Positions 4,700 through 31,722 of a DNA stretch of 33,475 bases are shown piece by piece. A model generated the notes under the pieces. The model ran no database searches and was not told the origin of the DNA. It worked only from the letters and a program-made list of their open reading frames with translations. Each line of letters begins with the position of its first letter. Position 1 is the stretch's first letter. The DNA is from Oceanospirillales bacterium. Lineage in GTDB: Bacteria; Pseudomonadota; Gammaproteobacteria; Xanthomonadales; SZUA-36. The position numbers and the translations under genes were made by a program. Location of the stretch: positions 1-33,475 of the forward strand of contig QIKV01000165.1 in assembly GCA_003233115.1 (NCBI GenBank), given 5' to 3'.

Positions 4700-5266
4700 T
4701 CACACGCGCTTGTGCTGCAATTGGATCAGGCTCTCGTTTTCCGGGTTCTTGCCGTGTTTGTTTTTGTAGTACTCACGGATCACTTTGAAGTCTGCTTCAA
4801 TATCATCGCCGGGATAAAAAGTGCTGTGGACACCCACCTGCTTTTTGCCGAAATCCAGATAGCCCAGCGCGATGGGCACGTTAGCCGTCCTGGCGATGTG
4901 GTAAAAGCCGGTCTTCCAGTGGTCGGTCTTGCTGCGGGTGCCTTCGGGAGCCAGCGCGAAGACCAGATGTTCGGAATTTTCAAACAAGTCTGCGATCTGC
5001 TGGATAAGATGCAGGCTGTGCTCCCGATCCACAGGTATACCGCCAAGCGTGCGAAAAAACCAGCCAAAGGGCCAATGAAAAATGGTGTGCTTGCCGATCC
5101 AGTGAACATCCAGCTTGACAGCCTTTACTGCCATGATACCGAGCGGGAAATCCCAGTTACTGGTATGTGGGGCGGCAATGATGACGTACTTTTTTACGTC
5201 CGGAAAATTTGCATGGATTTCCCAGCCGAGGGCAGTGAGTAGCCACTTGGACAGGTGGGCAAGCAT
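4700..5266 (-). CDS. Small PlsC-like glycerolphosphate acyltransferase family protein
   Basis: This 188-residue protein has the acyltransferase blocks in order: HTSNWD (residues 34-39), matching H(X4)D, GGIPVDRE near residue 75, and LAPEGTRSK near residue 106. These match the 1-acylglycerol-3-phosphate acyltransferase superfamily, but the protein is shorter than PlsC (about 245 residues) and lacks a strong N-terminal membrane helix, so it may be peripheral. The HTSNWD variant is common in a poorly characterised subgroup that is often annotated simply as acyltransferase. It begins seven bases after the ubiB stop and probably shares the ubi transcript. The acyl acceptor is unknown. It is distinct from the longer acyltransferase at 22903-23667. 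Confidence 0.82.
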   Translation of the reverse strand: MLAHLSKWLLTALGWEIHANFPDVKKYVIIAAPHTSNWDFPLGIMAVKAVKLDVHWIGKHTIFHWPFGWFFRTLGGIPVDREHSLHLIQQIADLFENSEHLVFALAPEGTRSKTDHWKTGFYHIARTANVPIALGYLDFGKKQVGVHSTFYPGDDIEADFKVIREYYKNKHGKNPENESLIQLQHKRV

Positions 5267-20827: not shown

Positions 20828-21014
20828 GCCCGTCACGGACCCCGATCCATCTCAAATACCGTTTTTCAATAGCTATTGATTTCTGGCAAAATAGTGTTTG
20901 TCCTGGCTCGACCCTTATATACGCTTTATGCGTATGCGCTTTTGTATTTTTTCATGTCTCGATGCCGACGTTGATTTCAACCGGATAGTGGCATTTTTTC
21001 ACCGGAGAATGGAT
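20828..21014. other. Intergenic region before the PEBP gene
   Basis: This 187-base AT-richer gap contains a perfect 12-base palindrome, CAATAGCTATTG, at 20867-20878 and a small hairpin, ACGC-TTTAT-GCGT, around 20920-20932. An ORF from 20898 runs in frame into the PEBP gene, but its 39 extra residues are unlike the family. No clear promoter hexamers are visible. Confidence 0.4.
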
Positions 21015-21638
21015 ATGAACCTGACCAGCACGAGTTTTGGCGATAATCAAGCGATTCCGACCGCGTGCGCATTTTGCGCGCCGGACCCGGCGAATCATGT
21101 AACGATGTCGGACAACCGCAATCCAGCTTTCGACTGGAATGAGGTTCCCGATGGCACTAAATCCCTGGTTCTTATCTGCTGTGATTCCGATGTGCCGGGC
21201 AGGCCGGATGACGTTAACCAGGAAGGCCGTGAAATCCCTGCCGACCTGCCGCGCGTGGATTTTTATCATTGGGTGCTGGTCGACTTGCCGGCAACGGCAA
21301 GGTCCATCGCTGCAGGCGAGTATTCAAGCGCCGTGACAGCGCGGGGCAAAGACGGACCGGCTGGGCCCGGTGGCACCCGGCAGGGTTTGAATAATTACAC
21401 GGACTGGTTTGCCGGCGATGCCGACATGGAAGGGAAATACTTTGGCTATGACGGACCCTGCCCGCCCTGGAATGACAGCATCGTGCACCATTATGTGTTC
21501 ACGCTGCATGCGCTCGACATCGATCGCTGTCCCCTGGAAGGAGAATTCAATGGTGCCGGGGTTCTCAGCGCGATCGCCCCGCATACGCTCGCCCGGGCAA
21601 GCATTACCGGAACCTACAGCCTGAATCCGAAGATTTGA
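21015..21638 (+). CDS. PEBP family protein (YbhB/YbcL, Raf-kinase-inhibitor-like)
   Basis: The 207-residue product (MNLTSTSFGDNQAIP...) shows the PEBP pattern: NRNPAFDWNEVPDGTKSLVLICCDSDVPG, DFYHWVLVDLPA and YFGYDGPCPPWNDSIVHHYVFTLHALD. PEBPs bind phosphate or phospholipid headgroups in a conserved pocket; the bacterial members have no settled function. I chose the ATG at 21015, which has GGAG ending seven bases upstream; an ATG at 21009 is only one base from that site. No signal peptide is seen from this start. It ends convergently with the reductase gene. The stop codon lies in a 14-base tandem duplication. Confidence 0.9.
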   Translation: MNLTSTSFGDNQAIPTACAFCAPDPANHVTMSDNRNPAFDWNEVPDGTKSLVLICCDSDVPGRPDDVNQEGREIPADLPRVDFYHWVLVDLPATARSIAAGEYSSAVTARGKDGPAGPGGTRQGLNNYTDWFAGDADMEGKYFGYDGPCPPWNDSIVHHYVFTLHALDIDRCPLEGEFNGAGVLSAIAPHTLARASITGTYSLNPKI

Positions 21639-21702: not shown

Positions 21703-22752
21703 TTAGTGCGGTTTTGCCAAAATCCTGACGGGTACATCCAGGCCGAATTCAAATGAATCAAAAAATATCCGTTGCCGATCAGCGCCATTTTCAAGGAAGG
21801 CCGTACGACCGGCGTCTATCATGGCAGGCGGGCCACTCATGTAAATATCGAAACCGGACAGGTCCGCGTACTGCTGTAGTACCGCTGCATGTACAAAACC
21901 GTGGAAACTGCCCGGCTCATCATCACCACGGGGCTCTGAAAGGGCGGTAGAGAACCGGATGTGATCGTTTTGCTCTGCCCAGTGGAGGGCTTGTTCGTAA
22001 AGGTACAGTTCAGCCCGGCTTCGCACGCCCCAGAACAGGTGGAGCGGGCGCCGGTCATGGTGTGACAGCAGGTCTTCAAGCATTGATTTCAATGGTGCAA
22101 ATCCGGTACCGCCACCCATCAGAATCATTGGCCGGTCGGTCTGGTCATGGCGGATAAAGAAATTCCCCAGTGGCCCTTCTATGCGCAGAATGTCCCGTTC
22201 TTTTAACTCATTAAAAACCCAGCCGGTGAAGTCACCGCCTTCGACATGGCGGATATGCAATTCAATTTCGTCTTCCAGTTGTGGTGGGCTGGCGATAGAG
22301 AACGCCCGCCTTTTACCCCCGGGCAAAAGTATCTCCAGGTACTGCCCGGCGAGGAACTGCAGTCGCTGTGCAGTGGGCAGTTTGATCTTCAATCGCATCA
22401 CATCCGTGGCCAGCAGGGTCTTGCGGGTCACCCGTACCGGCATTTTACGTACCTGGATATCCCGCACCGCTTCAATTTCACGGGCGTGGATAACAAGGTC
22501 TTCGGTTGGCTCTGCCTGGCACAGCAATGCTGCGCCTGCGGCAATCTCGGCGCGGGTCAACGCCAATGGGGGATGAAACGGATAGTGTACGTCACCGGAT
22601 TCCAGGCGGCCCTTACAACTGCCACAGGTACCGTTCTTGCAGCTATATGGCAGCATCACACCCTGGCGCAGTGCGGCAGTCAGGATGGACTCGCCTGCGT
22701 TGACTGTGAAGGTAGCGCCACTGCCGATGATCTTGACTTCAAATTGCTTCAT
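21703..22752 (-). CDS. 2Fe-2S ferredoxin / FAD reductase (AscD-like, CDP-6-deoxy-delta-3,4-glucoseen reductase type)
   Basis: The protein (349 residues) has an N-terminal plant-type ferredoxin domain with cluster ligands Cys38, Cys43, Cys46 and Cys78 (PYSCKNGTCGSCKG, ALLCQAEP), then an FNR-type FAD domain (RRAFSIASPP) and an NAD(P)H domain (MGGGTGFAPLKSML, FDSFEFG near the end). This order matches AscD-like reductases and aromatic oxygenase reductase components. It passes electrons from NAD(P)H through FAD to the cluster and on to a partner. No CDP-sugar or oxygenase gene is near, so the partner is unknown. It is divergent from the acyltransferase at 22903. Confidence 0.88.
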   Translation of the reverse strand: MKQFEVKIIGSGATFTVNAGESILTAALRQGVMLPYSCKNGTCGSCKGRLESGDVHYPFHPPLALTRAEIAAGAALLCQAEPTEDLVIHAREIEAVRDIQVRKMPVRVTRKTLLATDVMRLKIKLPTAQRLQFLAGQYLEILLPGGKRRAFSIASPPQLEDEIELHIRHVEGGDFTGWVFNELKERDILRIEGPLGNFFIRHDQTDRPMILMGGGTGFAPLKSMLEDLLSHHDRRPLHLFWGVRSRAELYLYEQALHWAEQNDHIRFSTALSEPRGDDEPGSFHGFVHAAVLQQYADLSGFDIYMSGPPAMIDAGRTAFLENGADRQRIFFDSFEFGLDVPVRILAKPH

Positions 22753-22812: not shown

Positions 22813-22860
22813 TAAAAAGGGGCCGGATACATTTTTTTAAATGTATCCGGCCCCTTTTTA
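22813..22860. repeat. 48-base perfect palindrome (bidirectional-terminator-like or REP/MITE-like)
   Basis: The 22-base arms at 22813-22834 and 22839-22860 are perfect reverse complements around a TTTT loop. Each arm reads TAAAAAGGGG, then CCGGATACATTT. The GC-rich stem with A/T-runs on both sides has the form of a bidirectional intrinsic terminator. However, it lies between divergent genes, upstream of both, where a terminator of either gene is not expected. It may insulate the two promoters, or be a dispersed palindromic element. Confidence 0.85.
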
Positions 22861-22861
22861 C

Positions 22862-22867
22862 TATAAT
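22862..22867 (+). promoter_or_regulatory. Possible -10 box of the acyltransferase operon
   Basis: A perfect TATAAT lies two bases after the palindrome. Transcription would start near 22874, about 29 bases before the ATG at 22903. The -35 position falls inside the palindrome arm (around 22839-22844) and is not a good TTGACA match. Confidence 0.4.
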
Positions 22868-22902
22868 CTTTGCGCCACTTTGCGCAAGGCCAGAACCGGA
22901 TA

Positions 22903-23667
22903 ATGATTTCAATACTTGCTTCAATTCTGAGATTTACCTTCCGTACTGTGCTGCTTGTTGGTTACCTGTTGTTGGTTCTTTTTCCAGCGTTAATGCTGAT
23001 CAATCATTTCAACGGCCTGGGCACTGAAGAAGGAAGCCTGAAAGCTGAAGCGACAGCGGTCCGGGTTGCATCCAGGCTACTCTGGATTTTTGGCGTAAAC
23101 ACCCGTGTCAGGGGGGCGCCGGCAGATGGGCCGGTATTGATAGCGGCGAATCACCTTTCCTGGCTGGATATACTGGTCATGCAGAGCGTTCGCTCCATGT
23201 GCTTTGTAGGCAAAGCCGAAATCGACCGCTGGCCCCTGTTCGGCTACATGGCACGTGCCGGCAATACCATTTTCCATCAGCGTGGCAGCCGCGATTCGGC
23301 CAGTGGTGCTGCCACGCTGATGATACAAAGGTTGAAGCAGGGACAGCGCGTCGCCATCTTCCCTGAAGGCGGTATCCTGCCGGGAAATTCGGTGCGTCGC
23401 TTTCATGCCCGCCTGTTTCGCGCGGCAGTGGACGCACAATGCCCGGTTCAGCCGGTCATGGTTCGTTATATGCGTGATGGCCACAGGGATGACGATATTT
23501 CTTTTCGGGAGGGTGAGAATATGATGGTGAATATTGGCAGGGTACTGGCCCGGCCGGGCGCGCAGGCAGATATTCGTTTTTTGCCGTTGATTGATGCTGC
23601 CGGAAGACCCCGGCGAGCGGTGGCGGATGCGGCGCGGGCTGCAGTTCTTGAAAATTACGCTGGCTGA
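22903..23667 (+). CDS. 1-acyl-sn-glycerol-3-phosphate acyltransferase (PlsC family)
   Basis: The 254-residue product has an N-terminal membrane segment (about residues 12-33, FRTVLLVGYLLLVLFPALML) and the acyltransferase motifs NHLSWLD (His84, Asp89), GKAEIDRWPLFGY, NTIFHQRG and FPEGG (153-157). It likely acylates lysophosphatidate or a related lysolipid at the inner membrane. The ATG at 22903 gives the family's usual start; an ATG at 22870 would add 11 residues and overlap the TATAAT region. It heads a tight four-gene run with three bases before the hydrolase gene. A second, shorter acyltransferase lies at 4700-5266. Confidence 0.9.
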   Translation: MISILASILRFTFRTVLLVGYLLLVLFPALMLINHFNGLGTEEGSLKAEATAVRVASRLLWIFGVNTRVRGAPADGPVLIAANHLSWLDILVMQSVRSMCFVGKAEIDRWPLFGYMARAGNTIFHQRGSRDSASGAATLMIQRLKQGQRVAIFPEGGILPGNSVRRFHARLFRAAVDAQCPVQPVMVRYMRDGHRDDDISFREGENMMVNIGRVLARPGAQADIRFLPLIDAAGRPRRAVADAARAAVLENYAG

Positions 23668-23670
23668 CGC

Positions 23671-24714
23671 ATGAAGCGAACCACGATCACTGCTGCAACA
23701 TTTCGCCCAGCGTACGGCTTGCGCAATACACATGCACAGTCACTGATCAACAGTAGTGGCTACCGTCGACAGATTGTCGGCAGGCGGGCAAGATCACTAT
23801 TGGCTGCCGAGCGGGAGTGGGTTGTAGACGGCGGTAACGGTGTGCGTTTGCTGGGGCATTATTCTAAGCAGGCAGGTGACAGCAGGGGCCTTGTTATCCT
23901 GTTTCACGGCTGGGAAGGCAGCAGTCGCTCCAATTATGTGGTCGGTGTTGGCGGCGCATTGTTTGAGCAGGGCTTTGACATATTTCGCCTGAACTTTCGC
24001 GACCATGGTGATACGCACCACCTGAACCCGGGAATTTTTCACTCTTGTCTGCTGGACGAAGTTGTCAATGCCTGCAAGGATGTACAGCAGCGCACGGGCG
24101 TACAAAGCTGGGCGCTCTCGGGTTATTCACTGGGTGGGAATTTTGCTCTCAGGGTTGCTTTAAAGGCGCCGGAAGCCGGCTTGCTGCTTGACCAGGTCAT
24201 TGCCGTGTGCCCGGTGGTTTCGCCGGCCAATGTGCTTAAAGCCATGGAAGACGGGCCCTCGATTTATGAAAACTACTTCATCCGCAAATGGTCGAAATCG
24301 CTTAAGCACAAACAATCGATCTTCCCGGATGCCTATGCGTATGAAGAATGGCATGCGTTGCAGGGCTTGCGGGCCAGAACCGGCTTTTTCGCCACGCGTT
24401 ATTACGAGTTTGAGTCGTTGGATCACTATTTTGAGGGCTACTCGATTGCAGGTGACCGCCTGGCGGCCATACAGATTCCGACCACCATTCTGACTTCAGA
24501 AGATGATCCGGTGGTGCCGGTTGCTGACTTCAAGAATCTGCCGGAAAATGACAATATTGAACTATTGGTGGCACACTTTGGTGGCCATTGTGCGTTTTTA
24601 AAAAATTGGAAAATGGAAAGTTGGGCAGATGACCTGATTGTTGAGCGTGTGATGCAGAGCACACGCAGGGCCGTCCCGCCACAAAACTGGCCACAGAAAA
24701 GGCAGACAGCATGA
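23671..24714 (+). CDS. Alpha/beta hydrolase, YheT-like
   Basis: This 347-residue protein follows the YheT pattern: PAYGLRNTHAQSL near the start, HGWEGSSRSNYVVG (residue 79 onward), LNFRDHGDTHHLNPG, the nucleophile Ser153 in SGYSLGGNFALRVAL, an acid in SEDDPVVP and His306 in HFGGHCAFL. YheT-family members are esterases related to eukaryotic ABHD1/ABHD3 lipid hydrolases. No signal peptide is visible. Placed between an acyltransferase and a TPR-sulfotransferase gene, it may act on the same lipid. It overlaps the next gene as ATGA. Confidence 0.88.
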   Translation: MKRTTITAATFRPAYGLRNTHAQSLINSSGYRRQIVGRRARSLLAAEREWVVDGGNGVRLLGHYSKQAGDSRGLVILFHGWEGSSRSNYVVGVGGALFEQGFDIFRLNFRDHGDTHHLNPGIFHSCLLDEVVNACKDVQQRTGVQSWALSGYSLGGNFALRVALKAPEAGLLLDQVIAVCPVVSPANVLKAMEDGPSIYENYFIRKWSKSLKHKQSIFPDAYAYEEWHALQGLRARTGFFATRYYEFESLDHYFEGYSIAGDRLAAIQIPTTILTSEDDPVVPVADFKNLPENDNIELLVAHFGGHCAFLKNWKMESWADDLIVERVMQSTRRAVPPQNWPQKRQTA

Positions 24715-26861
24715 TCAAGAAAGCCATCAAATTGCTGGAAGAAGGCAAGTTCAAAGAGGTGGAGGAGATTTTACGCCCTGTCATCGAGAAATCGCCGATG
24801 CACACCGAGGCATTGTTTCACCTTGCGCTGGCGCGCCGCGATCAGGGTGACATTTGGGAGGCAATCGAACTACTGAACCAGGCCATCAAGTCACAACCGA
24901 GAAATGCGACCCTGTTTTTTGCCCTGGGCAATATGCAATTGGCCATTCCGGACTACGATGAAGCAGAGAAAAACTTCCTCAAGTCTGTCGGTCTGGACCC
25001 CAATAATGTGGATGCCCGCAACGGCATTGCTTTCCTGGAGATTCGCCAGTCACGGTTTAAAGCTGCCGAGCATTCATTGATGATCGCATTGAATATTGAT
25101 CCGGACAATGTGCAGGCCCTGACATTTATTGGCATTGCATTGCTCGAGCAGGATCAACACGACAGCGCTATCAATTACTTGCAAAAAGCTGTGAAACTGG
25201 CCCCGGACAACGTCCAGAGCCAGTTTTGCCTGGGCCGTGCTTTACTCGCTGCAGGTCAATCCGGGTTTGCGATCCGGTGTTTCGAGAACGCGGCAAAGGC
25301 CGAGCCACAAACAGCAGAATTCAGGGACTGGCTGGCTTGCGCCCAGTTGAACAGTGGCCAGATCAGGGAAGCAAAAGAAAACTTCTACAAAACGCTGCAG
25401 ATGGGCAGAGTCAATATTGAAGTACTGATGGGGTTGGTCAAAGTAGAAACGCTGCTGGGCAATACTGCTGATGCACTGGGCGTAATGGCGCAAGCAGTGC
25501 AGTTGGCGCCGGAGCGTCCTGATCTGGGCATGCAATATGCGGATATGCTGATGGAAAGCAGTCGTTTTGATGAGGCGACAGATCAACTGCGGGGTTTGCT
25601 TGCGACAGGATTTGAACCGGAGAAGGTCGGTGTGCGCCTGGCTACAGTGCTGACGCAAAATGGCGCTCCTGACCAGGCGCTCGAAGTACTGGAATCATTG
25701 CAGAACAATGCAACCCGGAAGGATAAAACCATTGCACCCGAGACCCGCCTGATGCTGACCTGGGTTTTGCAGGAGTGCGGAGACGCAAAGGCCGCAGCGG
25801 AACAACTGGATATGCTGCTGGCCATGGAGCAGCCATTATTTGATGCAGTACTGTTTCGGGCGCGGCAAATGTATGACGCGGGTGACGATCAGGGCATCGA
25901 ATTGTTGCAGCAGATGCTCAAGCGCGACGATATCGATTCAGCGCATGCCCGGCAGGCACAAATACTGCTTGCGGCAGCATTGGATCAGGCCGGGGATTAT
26001 ACAGCGGCAGTAATGGAATACCGTGGCCTGGCAGACCGGCCGGCGGCCGTGGCACAACTCGCAGACCAGTTTTACCAGGGCGAATCGATTGGTGAACTGC
26101 CGGCGTCAGCCATGGATACAGCAGTCACTGCAGACTGGCCGCTACAACCGCCCGGGGATAATCGCCGCCAGGCAATATTCGTTTTTGCCTGGCCCGGTTC
26201 CGGGCGCAAACGGTTGTTGGCCGCGCTGGGACAGCACCCCGGGCTGTTCTACCTGCCGGAGGACCCCGTCCAGCAGCAGGCCCGCCTGGTGCGGTTGGCA
26301 GACCGGCAGGGCGCAAACGCATTGGGCAGTCTTGATGAAAGCAACATCAGGATGAGCCGTCGCCACTATTGGAAAGCGACGGGCCTGGACAGCCAGTTAC
26401 CGGCCAGCTTGAAGGTCATCGACACACAGTGGCTCAACGCTGAGATGTTACCGGCAATTGCAAGGTATTTTCCGGGAACTTCCATCGTTGTGCTGACTCG
26501 TGAGCCACGCGACATGGCAGTTGCGTGGATGCAGACGGGGTACCAGGGCCTGGAATCACTGGCAGCCCAATATCAGTCACAGGTGGAATTACTGCAGAAA
26601 TGCCGGGCTTCGTTGCCGTTGAATTTCATCGAAATGGAGTATGATGAGTTGTGTGATGACCCTGAAAAAGCGCTGCAGGCAATCCAGCAGTCGCTTGGGC
26701 TTGAGCCGATTGCAGCCGTGGTGGATCATTTCAATTCGGCAACGGCCCGTTTGCCGGCCAAATCCGGTGACTGGAAACATTACCAGGGTGAGTTGACTGC
26801 AGTGTTTGATAAATTTGCTCAATTACCTGCTCCGGGGGCAGGCGGTGCAAGCGGGATATAA
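24711..26861 (+). CDS. TPR-repeat protein with C-terminal sulfotransferase domain
   Basis: The protein has 716 residues. Residues about 1-480 are TPR-type helical repeats (AIELLNQAIKSQPRNATLFFALGNMQLA, SAINYLQKAVKLAPDNVQSQFCLGRALL and others). From about 486 to 705 the text is sulfotransferase-like: FAWPGSGRKRLLAALGQHPG in the 5'-phosphosulfate loop position, VVLTREPRDMAVAWM in the 3'-phosphate position, then YDELCDDPEKALQAI and SGDWKHY. Usual loops read PRSGTT and RxxxDxxxS, so the loop is degenerate and the Ser is Ala. The domain may bind PAPS weakly or not at all. Similar TPR-sulfotransferases are common in proteobacteria with unknown substrates. It is cytoplasmic as far as I can see. Confidence 0.85.
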   Translation: MIKKAIKLLEEGKFKEVEEILRPVIEKSPMHTEALFHLALARRDQGDIWEAIELLNQAIKSQPRNATLFFALGNMQLAIPDYDEAEKNFLKSVGLDPNNVDARNGIAFLEIRQSRFKAAEHSLMIALNIDPDNVQALTFIGIALLEQDQHDSAINYLQKAVKLAPDNVQSQFCLGRALLAAGQSGFAIRCFENAAKAEPQTAEFRDWLACAQLNSGQIREAKENFYKTLQMGRVNIEVLMGLVKVETLLGNTADALGVMAQAVQLAPERPDLGMQYADMLMESSRFDEATDQLRGLLATGFEPEKVGVRLATVLTQNGAPDQALEVLESLQNNATRKDKTIAPETRLMLTWVLQECGDAKAAAEQLDMLLAMEQPLFDAVLFRARQMYDAGDDQGIELLQQMLKRDDIDSAHARQAQILLAAALDQAGDYTAAVMEYRGLADRPAAVAQLADQFYQGESIGELPASAMDTAVTADWPLQPPGDNRRQAIFVFAWPGSGRKRLLAALGQHPGLFYLPEDPVQQQARLVRLADRQGANALGSLDESNIRMSRRHYWKATGLDSQLPASLKVIDTQWLNAEMLPAIARYFPGTSIVVLTREPRDMAVAWMQTGYQGLESLAAQYQSQVELLQKCRASLPLNFIEMEYDELCDDPEKALQAIQQSLGLEPIAAVVDHFNSATARLPAKSGDWKHYQGELTAVFDKFAQLPAPGAGGASGI

Positions 26862-26876
26862 CAGGATGGCAAGGCC

Positions 26877-27602
26877 ATGAAGAAAAAAGTATTGATTGGT
26901 ATAGGCGGAATTTTACTTGTTTTGGTAATTTTTACCTGGCAGGTCGTGGTTAATCTCGACAGCATTGTAGCGGGCGTGATCGAAGATGTTGGCTCGGATG
27001 TGTTGAAAACGAAGGTCAGCGTTTCAGATGTGTCCATCAGTCTGAAAGAAGGCAAGGCAAGCATCGGCGGTTTAACCGTTGCAAATCCCAAGGGGTATTC
27101 ACGTGCCAATCTCTTTGCAATGGAAGGCATCAAGGTTGACCTTGACTTGCAGTCGCTGGGCAAGGATGTGCTGGTGATCCAGTCCATTCGCATTCGCAAC
27201 CCGCAGATTGTTTTTGAAGGTGATGATGCCGGTGGCAGCAATATGCAGACCCTGCTGAATAACATTCAGGGCGCCTCAGGCGGGGATAGCGAAGCTGTGG
27301 GGGGTGAGGTCACAAAGGTGATCATCGAGCAGTTCGAACTCAGCGGGGCCCAGGTCAGGGCCACCTCGGCTTTGTTGCCTGACAAGGTCACGGAATTTAT
27401 ACTGCCGTCCATAAAGATGTCAGGTATTGGCCGGGCCCAGGGTGGTGTGACAACGGATGTTGCTGCGAAACAAATTGCCAGTAAACTGGCAAATAGTGTT
27501 GCTGAAGCCGCCCTGAAGGCCGGGATAAACAAAGTGCTTAAAGAGAAGGCAAAAGGTATCGAAGATGTACTTGGTGCCGTGTTGAGAGGCAAGAAAAAAT
27601 AA
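26877..27602 (+). CDS. Membrane-anchored AsmA-like hypothetical protein
   Basis: This 241-residue protein has an N-terminal membrane anchor (KKKVLIGIGGILLVLVIFTW) followed by the pattern seen at the start of AsmA/DUF748-type proteins: VSVSDVSISLKEGKASIGGLTVANPKGYSRANLFAMEGIKVDLDLQSL. The central part is beta-rich, and the C-terminus (NKVLKEKAKGIEDVLGAVLRGKKK) is a basic helix. It is much shorter than AsmA (about 600 residues), so it would be a small periplasm-facing relative. It lies 15 bases after the TPR-sulfotransferase gene and ends the run before the tRNA. A role at the envelope is inferred from the anchor and the family resemblance only. Confidence 0.75.
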   Translation: MKKKVLIGIGGILLVLVIFTWQVVVNLDSIVAGVIEDVGSDVLKTKVSVSDVSISLKEGKASIGGLTVANPKGYSRANLFAMEGIKVDLDLQSLGKDVLVIQSIRIRNPQIVFEGDDAGGSNMQTLLNNIQGASGGDSEAVGGEVTKVIIEQFELSGAQVRATSALLPDKVTEFILPSIKMSGIGRAQGGVTTDVAAKQIASKLANSVAEAALKAGINKVLKEKAKGIEDVLGAVLRGKKK

Positions 27603-27625: not shown

Positions 27626-27699
27626 GCGGGTGTAGTTCAATGGTAGAACTTCAGCTTCCCAAGCTGACTACGTGGGTTCGATTCCCATCACCCGCTCCA
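27626..27699 (+). tRNA. tRNA-Gly (anticodon CCC)
   Basis: The 74-base gene folds as a cloverleaf: acceptor GCGGGTG/CACCCGC, D-arm GTTC/GAAC, anticodon stem TCAGC/GCTGA with loop TTCCCAA and anticodon CCC at 27658-27660, and T-arm GTGGG/CCCAT with the loop TTCGATT. The CCA end is encoded. It reads GGG codons. The 3' end lies two bases from the stop codon of the convergent HDAC-type gene; I see no integrated element at it. Confidence 0.97.
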
Positions 27700-27701
27700 T
27701 C

Positions 27702-28616
27702 CTACATCAGACCCTGCACGTGGGCGCGGCTGGCGGTGGCCAGTGCCTGCAGGTCGTAGCCGCCTTCGAGTATGGACACGACGCGTCCCTGGCTGGCGTC
27801 AGCAGCCAGGTCGCAGATTTCCTCGGTGATCCAGCGGTAGTCTTCATCCTCTAGTTCCAGTTGCGCCAGCGGGTCACGCTGGTGCGCGTCGAAACCAGCC
27901 GAGACCAGGATCAGGTCAGGTGCAAAACTGTGGATGGCCGGCAACCCCAATCTGCTCCAGGCGCTGCGAAAAATGTTGCCACCGTCACCTGCCGCCAGCG
28001 GCAGGTTGAGGATGTTGCCGCACCCGGTTTCTTCAATATGGCCGCTACCCGGATACAGCGGTAGCTGGTGGCTGGATACGTACATCACGTCCGGGTTTTG
28101 TTCAAATACTGCCTGTGTGCCGTTGCCGTGGTGAACATCAAAATCAACGATGGCAACGCGTTTGACGCTGGGGTTGGCGAGTGCTTGCATGGCGCCGATG
28201 GCAATGTGGTTGATCAGGCAGAAGCCCATGGCCTTTTCCGGTTCACTGTGGTGGCCGGGTGGACGCACAACACAAAAAGCCCGCAGTGCCTTGCCGGCCA
28301 GCACCTGGTCAATGGCAAAACAGATACCACCACTGGCCCGCAGTACCGCATTGATTGAGCCATTGCTCAGGTGCGTATCCGGGTCGATGGAAAAGTATCC
28401 CTCGGCAGGCTCATCGGCTTGTAATCCAGCCCAGAACTCTGCCGGGTGGACACGTGTGATCTGATCGGTGCTTGCACGCGGCGCAGGTAATTTCTGCAGT
28501 CCCCTGAGGCCGTCCAGACCACTCATGACGGCCTTTACCCGTTGCGCGGATTCCGGGTGCCTGGGCCCGGGGTCGTGGCGCAGGCAGTCGTCATGCTGGA
28601 TGATAATCGTGCTCAT
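27702..28616 (-). CDS. Histone-deacetylase-superfamily amidohydrolase
   Basis: The 304-residue protein has the zinc amidohydrolase features of the HDAC/AcuC/acetylpolyamine amidohydrolase superfamily: RPPGHHSEPEKAMGFCLIN with His122 and His123, zinc ligands Asp160 and His162 in DFDVHHGNGT and Asp243 in SAGFDAHQRDP, and Tyr287 in EGGYD. It removes acetyl groups from an N-acetylated amine or lysine. It is ten bases downstream of lrp on the same strand and divergent from the beta-alanine catabolic genes, so a small acetylated amine is a plausible substrate. Acetylpolyamine or acetyl-lysine protein substrates are the alternatives. Confidence 0.93.
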   Translation of the reverse strand: MSTIIIQHDDCLRHDPGPRHPESAQRVKAVMSGLDGLRGLQKLPAPRASTDQITRVHPAEFWAGLQADEPAEGYFSIDPDTHLSNGSINAVLRASGGICFAIDQVLAGKALRAFCVVRPPGHHSEPEKAMGFCLINHIAIGAMQALANPSVKRVAIVDFDVHHGNGTQAVFEQNPDVMYVSSHQLPLYPGSGHIEETGCGNILNLPLAAGDGGNIFRSAWSRLGLPAIHSFAPDLILVSAGFDAHQRDPLAQLELEDEDYRWITEEICDLAADASQGRVVSILEGGYDLQALATASRAHVQGLM

Positions 28617-28626
28617 ATCATTCCTG

Positions 28627-29112
28627 TCAAAATAACGGCAGATTCAAGGTTTCTTTGACCTCTTCCATCACCACATAGCTGCGTGAACCGTTGACCCCCG
28701 GGAGTGAGAGTATCTTCTCACCCAACAGTTCGCGATAGGCTTTCATGTCGCTGACGCGGGCTTTGATCAGGTAATCAAAGTTGCCGGATACCAGGTGGCA
28801 ATCCATGATTTCCGGTAGCCGGCGTGCCTCGTCACGAAACTTCCGGAACGCGTCGGGCGAATTGTGTGACAGGTCAATTTCGACAAATACCAGCAAGCTG
28901 GCATTGACAAGTTCCGGGTCCAGGATCGCGGTATATCCGCGGATGTAGCCGTGTCGCTCAAGGCGCTTGACCCGCTCAATGCAGGGTGTAGGTGTCAGGT
29001 TGACTTTCCGTGCGAGTTGCACATTTGAAATCCGGCCATCGGCCTGCAGGCATTCAAGTATGCGCCGGTCGGTACGATCCAGCACTTTGGGGGTTTTTCG
29101 TTGCTTGCTCAT
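28627..29112 (-). CDS. lrp: Lrp/AsnC family transcriptional regulator
   Basis: This 161-residue protein closely follows E. coli Lrp: LDRTDRRILECLQADGRISNVQLARKVNLTPTPCIERVKRLERHGYIRGYTA for the winged helix-turn-helix (about residues 12-60), then LLVFVEIDL, CHLVSGNFDYLIKARVSDM and LPGVNGSRSYVVMEEVKET in the ligand-binding RAM domain. It probably senses an amino acid (leucine or alanine family). It is divergent from ald and likely controls the intervening 120-base region, as Lrp-type regulators do for alanine dehydrogenase in several bacteria. It is upstream of the HDAC-type gene in the same transcript. Confidence 0.95.
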   Translation of the reverse strand: MSKQRKTPKVLDRTDRRILECLQADGRISNVQLARKVNLTPTPCIERVKRLERHGYIRGYTAILDPELVNASLLVFVEIDLSHNSPDAFRKFRDEARRLPEIMDCHLVSGNFDYLIKARVSDMKAYRELLGEKILSLPGVNGSRSYVVMEEVKETLNLPLF

Positions 29113-29137
29113 TTAATATGTTGAAAAAATCCTCAAA

Positions 29138-29156
29138 ACCAGATGAATAGTCTGGT
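29138..29156. promoter_or_regulatory. Candidate Lrp operator between lrp and ald
   Basis: ACCAGATGAATAGTCTGGT is an inverted repeat (ACCAGA, seven bases, TCTGGT). Its core CAGATGAATAGTCTG fits 11 of 15 positions of the Lrp consensus YAGHAWATTWTDCTR, including both conserved CAG/CTG ends. The 120-base gap is strongly AT-rich compared with the surroundings, as expected of a region bent by Lrp. The remaining AT tract (29160-29220) contains no promoter hexamers that I can fix with confidence. ald has AAAGG at 29221-29225, seven bases before its ATG. Confidence 0.6.
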
Positions 29157-29232
29157 TGCCTAATATAAATAGCATAAAAAACTACATTAATATAGATAAG
29201 ATAGTTTATTAGCACATTTTAAAGGTATTCTC

Positions 29233-30354
29233 ATGAGAATTGGTGCCCCAAAAGAAATTAAAAACAATGAATTTCGTGTCGGCCTGGTGCCCGCGTCGGT
29301 GCGTGAACTGACCGATCACGGGCATGAAGTATATGTTGAAACCAATGCAGGTATCGGTATTGGTATGGCAGATGAGGACTACATAACCGCCGGCGCCCAT
29401 ATTCTCCCTGATGCGCCGAGGGTATTCGAAAAAGCAGAGATGATCGTCAAGGTCAAGGAGCCGCAGGCGGTTGAGCGCGCCATGCTGCGTGCCGATCACA
29501 CGCTGTTTACCTATCTTCACCTGGCACCGGATGCAGCGCAGACTGAAGACCTGGTCAGCAGCGGAGCGACCTGTATCGCCTATGAAACCGTTACCGACCG
29601 GCACGGTCGCTTGCCGTTGCTGGCGCCGATGTCGGAAGTGGCAGGCCGGCTTTCCATTCAGGCGGGTGCCTGGTGTCTGGAAAAGGCGCACGGCGGGTCC
29701 GGCGTATTGCTGGGTGGTGTGCCGGGTGTCGAACCCGCCAAGGTGGTTGTTATTGGTGGTGGCACAGTGGGCTTTAACGCAACCCAGATGGCGGTTGGCA
29801 TGGGTGCCCGGGTGGTCGTCCTGGACCGCAGTGCGGAAGTGCTGCAGCATTTTGATGCCATTTTTCATGGCCGCGTACAAACGGTTTACTCGAGTGCCGG
29901 TGCCATCGAGCGCCACCTGCACCACGCAGACCTGGTCATTGGCGGCGTGTTGATCCCGGGTGCGTCTGCGCCCAAACTGGTTACCCGGAACCACCTGGCT
30001 GCAATGCGCAAAGGTTCTGTTCTGGTCGATGTTGCGATTGACCAGGGTGGTTGCTTTGAGACGTCCCATGCGACCACGCACGAAGAACCCATTTACATGG
30101 TTGACGATATCGTGCACTACTGCGTTGCCAACATGCCCGGCGCGGTGCCACGTACCTCTACTTTTGCCTTGAACAATGTGACGCTGCCTTTCGTTCTGGC
30201 CCTGGCCAATAAAGGTGCGAAACAGGCGATGCTGGATAATCCGCATTTGCTGGCGGGTCTGAACGTACATCGCGGCAAGGTGACCTATAAAGACGTCGCG
30301 CGTGACCTTGGCTATGATTATGTGGCGGCAGCGAAAGCCCTGGAAATTGCCTGA
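29233..30354 (+). CDS. ald: Alanine dehydrogenase
   Basis: The 373-residue enzyme starts [23 protein letters not shown], the diagnostic alanine dehydrogenase N-terminus. [10 protein letters not shown] contains the substrate-binding Lys, YLHLAPD the active-site His, [19 protein letters not shown] follows, and [17 protein letters not shown] is the NAD-binding turn. It interconverts L-alanine with pyruvate and ammonia using NAD. It is divergent from lrp. Behind it lies a beta-alanine:pyruvate transaminase, whose product L-alanine it would recycle to pyruvate. The 51-base gap to bauA suggests one transcript. Confidence 0.97.
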
Positions 30355-30405
30355 GCGTCAAGTTGATAATAATTCTGGATTAGGAAGGTTGTAAGGAGTA
30401 CTGGA

Positions 30406-31722
30406 ATGAAAGCACATAATCTCTCGATGGAATCGTTCTGGCTGCCGTTCACCAGCAACCGGGCGTTCAAGAAACACCCGCGCCTGGTTGAGCGTGCTCA
30501 AGGCATGTTTTACTTCACCCCGGATGGCCGCCAGGTCCTCGACATGGTCGCGGGCTTGTGGTGCTGCAATGCAGGCCATGGCCATGCACGGATCGTCGAG
30601 GCCATCCAGGCCCAGGCTGCAGAAATGGATTATGCGCCGCATTTTAATTTCGGGCATCCGGCGGCATTTGAAGTTGCCGATATGCTCGCTGAGATCGCGC
30701 CGGCAGGCATGAACCACGTATTTTTCACCAACTCCGGTTCGGAGTCAGTGGACACGGCGCTGAAAATCGCGCTGGCCTACCAGAAAGAGCGCGGCCAGGC
30801 TTCCCGTACCCGGTTGATTGGCCGTGAACGTGGCTACCACGGCGTTGGATTCGGCGGGATATCCGTTGGCGGCATACCTTATAACCGGATGCAGTTCTCC
30901 AATTCCATGATTCCCGGTGTGGATCATTTACCGCATACGCATTTAATCGATAAAAATGCCTTCTCGCGTGGCTTGCCTGAACATGGCATTGAACTGGCCG
31001 ACGAATTGGAAAACATCGTGAACCTGCATCATCCGTCCAATATTGCGGCGGTGATCGTGGAGCCTGTGGCGGGCTCTGCGGGTGTCTTGATGCCACCAAA
31101 GGGGTATTTAAAGCGTTTGCGTGAAATCTGCGACCGGCATGACATCCTGCTGATCTTTGATGAAGTGATTACCGGCTTCGGACGGCTGGGAGACAATTTT
31201 GCCTCCCAGGCGTTTGCTGTAACCCCGGATATTATTACGACTGCCAAAGGCCTGACCAGCGGAACGGTACCCATGGGTGCGGTTCTGGTAAAAGATGAAA
31301 TCTACAATGAGTTCATGTCCAAACCCGGCAATGCTATTGAGCTTTTCCACGGCTATACTTACTCCGCCCACCCATTGGCCGTGGCTGCCTGTAAAGCGGC
31401 CCAGGAAGTGTACGCAGATGAAGGCTTGTTCCAGCGTGCCGCTGAAATGGCACCGGTATTTGAAGATGCTCTGCACTCACTGAAAGATGAGCCGTACGTG
31501 ATCGACGTTCGTAACTACGGTTTGATGGGTGCGGTCGAGCTGGCGGCGATTGAAGGCCAGCCAGGTGCGCGTGGAGCGGAACTGGTGCAAAAAACCTTTG
31601 ATGCCGGCCTGATGATCCGTGTGACCGGTGATACGATCGCTTTCAGTCCGCCGCTGATTATGGAACAAAGCCATCTTCAGCAGGCGGTTGAAACACTCAG
31701 AACGATTTTGAGAGCACTCTAA
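30406..31722 (+). CDS. bauA: Beta-alanine (omega-amino acid):pyruvate aminotransferase
   Basis: The 438-residue class III aminotransferase shows FWLPFTSNRAFKKHPRLV near the start, VAGLWCCNAGHGH, VFFTNSGSESVDTALKIA, GYHGVGFGG, FDEVITGFGRLG and TTAKGLTSGTVPMGAV with PLP Lys281. The N-terminal text and GLWCCNAGH match the omega-amino acid:pyruvate transaminases. It moves the amino group of beta-alanine (or another omega-amine) to pyruvate, giving malonate semialdehyde and L-alanine. The start is the ATG at 30406, with AAGGAG seven bases upstream. The next gene, mmsA, begins four bases after the stop. Confidence 0.92.
   Translation: MKAHNLSMESFWLPFTSNRAFKKHPRLVERAQGMFYFTPDGRQVLDMVAGLWCCNAGHGHARIVEAIQAQAAEMDYAPHFNFGHPAAFEVADMLAEIAPAGMNHVFFTNSGSESVDTALKIALAYQKERGQASRTRLIGRERGYHGVGFGGISVGGIPYNRMQFSNSMIPGVDHLPHTHLIDKNAFSRGLPEHGIELADELENIVNLHHPSNIAAVIVEPVAGSAGVLMPPKGYLKRLREICDRHDILLIFDEVITGFGRLGDNFASQAFAVTPDIITTAKGLTSGTVPMGAVLVKDEIYNEFMSKPGNAIELFHGYTYSAHPLAVAACKAAQEVYADEGLFQRAAEMAPVFEDALHSLKDEPYVIDVRNYGLMGAVELAAIEGQPGARGAELVQKTFDAGLMIRVTGDTIAFSPPLIMEQSHLQQAVETLRTILRAL

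Follow-up and report, generated by a model that had tools for sequence, protein, structure and literature searches.

What might four closely spaced genes accomplish together when two belong to families acting on acyl lipids, one resembles a sulfotransferase and one is a small envelope-type protein? This question is raised by a stretch of 33,475 nucleotides from Oceanospirillales bacterium (assembly GCA_003233115.1, contig QIKV01000165.1, positions 1 to 33,475 of the forward strand), referred to here as the window, in which an earlier note had proposed an undescribed operon that makes and moves a modified lipid. The open reading frame coordinates bear out the layout described there: an acyltransferase of the PlsC type (gene 1, 22903..23667, 254 amino acids), an alpha/beta hydrolase of a YheT-related subfamily (gene 2, 23671..24714, 347 amino acids), a TPR protein with a C-terminal pseudo-sulfotransferase domain (gene 3, 24711..26861, 716 amino acids) and a small DUF748/AsmA-like protein with an N-terminal hydrophobic stretch (gene 4, 26877..27602, 241 amino acids) all lie on the plus strand, spaced by 3, -4 and 15 bases. 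Gene 1 has an alternative TTG start at 22870. No plus-strand terminator-like or promoter-like site was detected at the three junctions by a consensus scan, which returned a single weak minus-strand terminator-like site (26866-26878) and a site total no higher than in shuffled sequence. The answer favored here, to which we give a probability of roughly 0.45, is that the unit remodels an acyl-ester lipid, with the acyltransferase and the hydrolase as its core, gene 3 as a helper and gene 4 as a lineage-specific addition.

The evidence that carries this answer begins with gene order, which was followed through two genome samples, 61 near relatives and 121 genomes drawn across one gammaproteobacterial order, together 139 different genomes from 12 families (coded f1 to f12; f1, the family of the window, is over-represented). 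A hydrolase matching gene 2 at an E value of 1e-30 or better occurs in 57 of the 61 near relatives, 116 of the 121 order genomes and 132 of the 139 overall. The surroundings of the hydrolase were read at 131 loci, window included, and scored with profiles built in this analysis; the upstream side could be judged at 129 of them (two being short of sequence) and the downstream side at 117 (14 short). A second, N-terminally broken hydrolase copy in genome G006 and a fragment at a contig edge in G052 were left out of the counts. The acyltransferase stands directly upstream of the hydrolase, on the same strand, at 128 of 129 loci in all 12 families, with a median gap of 24 bases as measured from profile edges; the sole exception is G247 (locus L233), in which a PEBP gene comes immediately after the hydrolase. 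Gene 3 lies directly downstream of the hydrolase at 54 of 117 loci in 8 families, and a separate coordinate join of two whole-genome searches gave a similar 52/116. The adjacency is unevenly distributed, being found in 15/18 loci of f2, 3/4 of f5, 1/1 of f6, 14/16 of f8, 14/18 of f9 and 1/1 of f10, in 5/25 of f1 and 1/18 of f12, and in none of f3 (0/3), f4 (0/7) or f11 (0/6), f7 not being judgeable. The tally was lowered from 55 to 54 after the match in G021 proved to be an intact sulfotransferase lying two genes farther along, and G010 and G011, in which only the start of gene 3 is present at a contig end, are likewise excluded.

Degenerate gene 3-type proteins are encoded apart from the hydrolase as well, in f3, f4 and f11 and in part of the f7, f9 and f12 genomes; the one in G312 lies about 4 kb downstream of the hydrolase on the same strand. 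The 20 unlinked pieces of this type include the other end of the interrupted G010 gene, as well as two proteins, in G316 and G056, that retain the catalytic Arg and Lys discussed below and are ordinary sulfotransferases. Taken together, the near-universal pairing of genes 1 and 2, the 54 linked copies of gene 3 and its displaced copies indicate that genes 1 and 2 form a near-invariant pair, of which gene 3 is an old partner that has often been lost or moved. The linkage exceeds chance, and the first three genes are not scattered independently among relatives, a co-occurrence that the earlier note had proposed to check.

Both members of the pair, which the earlier note had linked to acyl lipids by family, look like working acyl enzymes in which the expected residues are kept. 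Gene 1 matches the acyltransferase family PF01553 with 89 bits (cut-off 23) and shares with PlsC, the lysophosphatidic acid acyltransferase (LPAAT), and with its OlsA subgroup the HX4D and FPE motifs: the His and Asp of HX4D are retained in 128 of 128 orthologues, and the F, P and E of block III in 127, 124 and 128 of them. Its scores nevertheless remain below every curated NCBIfam cut-off tested, including the housekeeping LPAAT models TIGR00530 (85 bits against 102.95), PRK15018 (30.4 against 501) and YihG (19.3 against 260). The same genome also encodes PlsB, a separate YihG-type LPAAT and other PF01553 proteins; gene 1 is therefore an extra enzyme, and a role as the sole LPAAT is ruled out. 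A second acyltransferase gene in the window, at 4700-5266 on the minus strand, matches PF01553 with 55 bits over the core and TIGR00530 with 49.9 bits, under the cut-off.

Gene 2 matches Abhydrolase_1 with 55.3 bits (cut-off 25.8), and in its orthologues the Ser of the GYSLGGN motif is kept in 131 of 131, two neighboring Asp candidates and the His in 130 of 131. Its best NCBIfam match is PRK10985, a model named simply "hydrolase", which we take to represent YheT of Escherichia coli. The protein resembles YheT in length, in a match running from start to end (residues 9-312) and in its alpha/beta hydrolase residues, so that the YheT-like label holds for family and residues; it fails at the level of the equivalog, the score being 84.6 bits against a cut-off of 267, and the great majority of the YheT-like matches listed in a sample of the class are only about 22-31% identical to gene 2, with 32-44% at 11 loci outside the order. 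We know of no such acyltransferase neighbor of yheT in E. coli. A search of PDB sequences with gene 2 returned no match at E 0.001. In ten pairs of five close species, the ratio of nonsynonymous to synonymous substitutions (dN/dS, by simple Nei-Gojobori counts) was 0.04-0.22 for gene 1 and 0.03-0.08 for gene 2.

Gene 3 presents a different picture, in which a recognizable fold is kept and its catalytic residues are gone. Besides its TPR repeats, the protein matches Sulfotransfer_3 (PF13469) with 44.8 bits over a cut-off of 27, compared with at least 172 bits for each of 30 controls, which are other PF13469 proteins, one from each of 30 genomes, picked as the locus with the highest score and for that reason leaning toward intact enzymes. 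The C-terminal domain (26019..26858, plus strand), modeled from 16 orthologues, reached a mean predicted local distance difference test score (pLDDT) of 85.6 and a predicted template modeling score (pTM) of 0.86, and its top structural matches in Foldseek and VIA-align are tyrosylprotein sulfotransferases (TPSTs), with TPST1 (5wrj_A) superposed over 220 residues at a root-mean-square deviation of 3.7 (Z 15.3). The gene 3 family profile also finds TPST1 by sequence, weakly (E 2.4e-4). One profile used in searching the genomes was made from 16 proteins of the locus, whose own matches to it are a foregone result.

According to the excerpt available of a study of human TPST1, the catalytic residues of that enzyme are R79, E100, K159 and S286 (PMC5562738). 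When a profile of nine controls was aligned to TPST1, the Arg of a PRSG motif, a Glu 21 residues further on and the Lys of a (D/N)K pair corresponded to R79, E100 and K159, positions being numbered by counting residues of TPST1 in the alignment output; S286 found no place in that alignment and does not enter the tallies, and the comparison covers the sulfotransferase part of the proteins. Each of the 30 controls has all three residues. Among the 54 locus proteins, in contrast, the R79 and K159 equivalents are lost in every case and that of E100 in 51; the window protein belongs to the three that keep a Glu in the E100 column, and its Arg and Lys are absent. Moreover, the second loop Thr is gone in the 16 of 16 gene 3 proteins examined, together with almost the whole of the T-S-x-x-Q-V-R stretch. 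The label of TPR-sulfotransferase in the earlier note thus stands for the fold and is not supported for the chemistry; on these alignments, gene 3 is hardly able to function like the known sulfotransferases, and its role is probably that of a structural aid. The domain is under selection among close species, with dN/dS values of 0.10-0.19 (ten pairs of five species, dS 0.14-0.46). Sulfotransfer_3 genes are abundant in these genomes, with 9 in the genome of the window (G000) and up to 27 in G006, many of them in frames of 500-860 codons.

In the favored explanation, the remodeled lipid would probably be a membrane phospholipid at the inner membrane. One of the two enzymes would remove acyl chains and the other would add them, by which the chain make-up could be changed or damaged chains replaced. 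Such a cycle of deacylation and reacylation is suggested, from knowledge of the families, because an acyltransferase and a hydrolase are paired in a genome that already possesses PlsB and LPAAT-like enzymes. Gene 3 would most likely serve the two enzymes as a scaffold, or else as a partner that binds or senses, since TPR repeats joined to a kept but catalytically empty fold find their simplest use in scaffolding or ligand binding. A more specific version, in which TPR pseudo-sulfotransferases of at least eight families of the order have become the binding or regulatory subunit of an undescribed acyltransferase/hydrolase complex for membrane-lipid remodeling, with the former sulfate-donor pocket now binding or sensing a different ligand, possibly a nucleotide or the head group of a lipid, is a doubtful proposal.

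Several observations weigh against this explanation. Gene 3 is absent at 63 of the 117 judgeable loci and is therefore dispensable for the gene 1-2 pair, and the fixed four-gene pathway implied by the earlier note fails on this count as well as on the restricted distribution of gene 4. In a sample of 185 genomes of the class, 11 loci with closer hydrolases (30-47% identical) were inspected beyond the order, and none has an acyltransferase beside the hydrolase, so gene 2 is able to function in the absence of gene 1. The Arg of the 3'-phosphate loop is retained in 14 of 16 gene 3 proteins, window included, so some ligand binding may remain in this domain. In pairs with three more distant species, the dN/dS of the gene 3 domain rises to 0.36-0.60, which could reflect relaxed constraint; gene 3 as decaying junk is nevertheless unlikely in view of the low close-species values. 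Finally, the lipid substrate of the pair is only proposed, from what is known of the two families.

The most credible alternative, although in our judgment rather unlikely, is that the genes share a transcript but work independently, with gene 1 as another LPAAT, gene 2 as a general esterase and genes 3 and 4 as unrelated members. The solitary occurrence of gene 2 in other orders, the relocation of gene 3 in several families and the rarity of gene 4 are all consistent with it, but the almost unbroken pairing of genes 1 and 2 across 12 families, with their short gaps, would be difficult to account for unless they served a common process. A second alternative concerns gene 3, whose chemistry may have been changed rather than lost, a remodeled loop and a new Asp serving another donor or ligand on the lipid. 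In fact, Asp occupies the E100 column in 40 of the 54 locus proteins, often as an Asp-Arg pair, the loop Pro-Gly is retained in most gene 3 proteins, and the selection acting on the domain among close species would fit a retained activity. However, the Asp-Arg pair is absent from the window (LPED) and from its nearest relatives (LSGQ in G006), and the alignment is soft at this column because a gap adjoins it, and we regard a changed chemistry as improbable.

Less probable still is that gene 1 is the OlsA-like second acyltransferase of an aminolipid pathway, whose product gene 2 would turn over. In NCBIfam, gene 1 does match OlsA models best, but the scores of 106.1 and 105.5 bits are far below the cut-off of 300. 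Moreover, the OlsB-type family PF13444 has no match at E 0.001 in the genome of the window, a draft that is 94.7% complete, and is above its cut-off in 18 of the 61 near relatives, while the gene 1-2 pair is found almost everywhere; a role in ornithine lipid synthesis is for this reason unlikely, although another type of N-acyltransferase may be present. The remaining alternative, that the unit produces a modified lipid, sulfates it and exports it, gene 3 being a sulfotransferase dependent on 3'-phosphoadenosine 5'-phosphosulfate, is very improbable and was rejected as the main interpretation, since the above-threshold Sulfotransfer_3 match, the TPST-like fold, the kept 3'-loop Arg and the Glu of the window protein are outweighed by the loss of catalytic residues across the locus family and of loop residues in the 16 proteins examined.

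Gene 4, the last member of the unit, is real but lineage-restricted. It matches DUF748 (PF05359) with 54.1 bits, over the cut-off of 50, through the N-terminal part of the profile only: its 241 amino acids cover about the first 170 of 1037 positions. In the excerpt seen of one study, DUF748 is described as similar to, and grouped with, the AsmA and TamB domains (PMC4494059). The AsmA-like label of the earlier note is accordingly sustained at the level of DUF748 and not by AsmA itself (PF05170), for which the score of 20.9 bits is under the cut-off of 29.8. The structure model is poor (mean pLDDT 60.0, pTM 0.47) and too weak for a fold search, for a comparison with AsmA/TamB or for judging whether the protein has a lipid-holding beta groove. 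Among the 61 near relatives, 17 have some match to gene 4 at E 0.001 and 6, the genome of the window included, have a close one (E 1e-25 or better). Five of these six lie at the locus of the unit or beside a piece of it, and the copy in G002 is elsewhere. All four genes are in order in G035; in G008, genes 1 and 2 are followed by gene 4, with one opposite-strand gene, Sel1-like by eye, between them; and in G010, genes 1-3 run up to one contig end while the end of gene 3 and gene 4 are on another contig. In G006, the homologue stands beside the broken second hydrolase copy, again with an opposite-strand gene between them (L096, 5070-8891, minus strand; also L040), and this arrangement reflects either a decayed duplicate locus or the presence of another strain in the bin. 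Since few genomes have gene 4 at the locus, the idea that it is a constant part of the unit is rejected. In the lineage of the window, this small envelope protein may hold or pass the lipid; the movement of a modified lipid put forward in the earlier note would depend solely on the DUF748/AsmA resemblance of gene 4, and the lipid-operon interpretation as a whole is partly supported.

Other features surround the unit. Between gene 1 and a divergent reductase gene lies a perfect 22-nt inverted repeat with a 4-nt loop and T-runs on both strands (22813..22860), which has the appearance of a bidirectional terminator-like element; it is not a multi-copy element, no second copy of its core being present in the genome at up to 3 mismatches. 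Straight after the hairpin, a TATAAT is visible by eye on the plus strand (22862-22867) and is absent from the list of the consensus scan. The reductase gene, of Fer2/FAD/NAD type, is at 21703-22752 on the minus strand, and many f1 relatives keep a reductase at this place beside HemX/HemY genes. A YbhB-type PEBP gene (20928..21638, plus strand; PF01161, 113.8 bits) is present but not adjacent in the window; elsewhere, 30 of the 131 loci have a PEBP gene on the downstream side of gene 2, no more than 4.5 kb away. On the upstream side, a hotdog thioesterase gene occurs in 44 of the 131 (PF03061 in the single representative scanned) and an APH-type kinase gene, presumably SrkA-like, in 12. The recurring thioesterase and PEBP neighbors are counted in favor of the lipid-remodeling explanation. 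At one locus outside the order, in G065, gene 3 lies downstream of the hydrolase and the kinase upstream. Gene 4 is followed by a tRNA-Gly (27626-27699) and by a block at 27702-31722 with a histone-deacetylase-like gene and an Lrp/AsnC regulator and, opposite them, an aminotransferase-like gene and a gene of 373 amino acids that we take to be alanine-dehydrogenase-like; the block also comes after the unit in several f1 genomes.

The component families are all known. A PlsC/lysophospholipid-acyltransferase-type gene is likewise part of the glucoselipid operon glcABC of Rouxiella badensis, the partners of which, in the excerpt available of the report, are a GNAT N-acyltransferase and a HAD phosphatase, and that excerpt includes no alpha/beta hydrolase, TPR or sulfotransferase gene (PMC12299268). 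The earlier note knew of no named pathway with this set, and none of the titles listed in searches of openly licensed papers described it; the near-invariant pair with its attached TPR pseudo-sulfotransferase looks undescribed. The pairing of acyltransferase and hydrolase points to an undescribed and widely kept step of membrane-lipid upkeep in the sampled families. Gene 3, in turn, serves as a warning for annotation, as a family search calls it a sulfotransferase while, by alignment, the catalytic residues have been lost throughout the proteins of the locus, and it would offer a manageable example of a sulfotransferase fold adopted for a different purpose.

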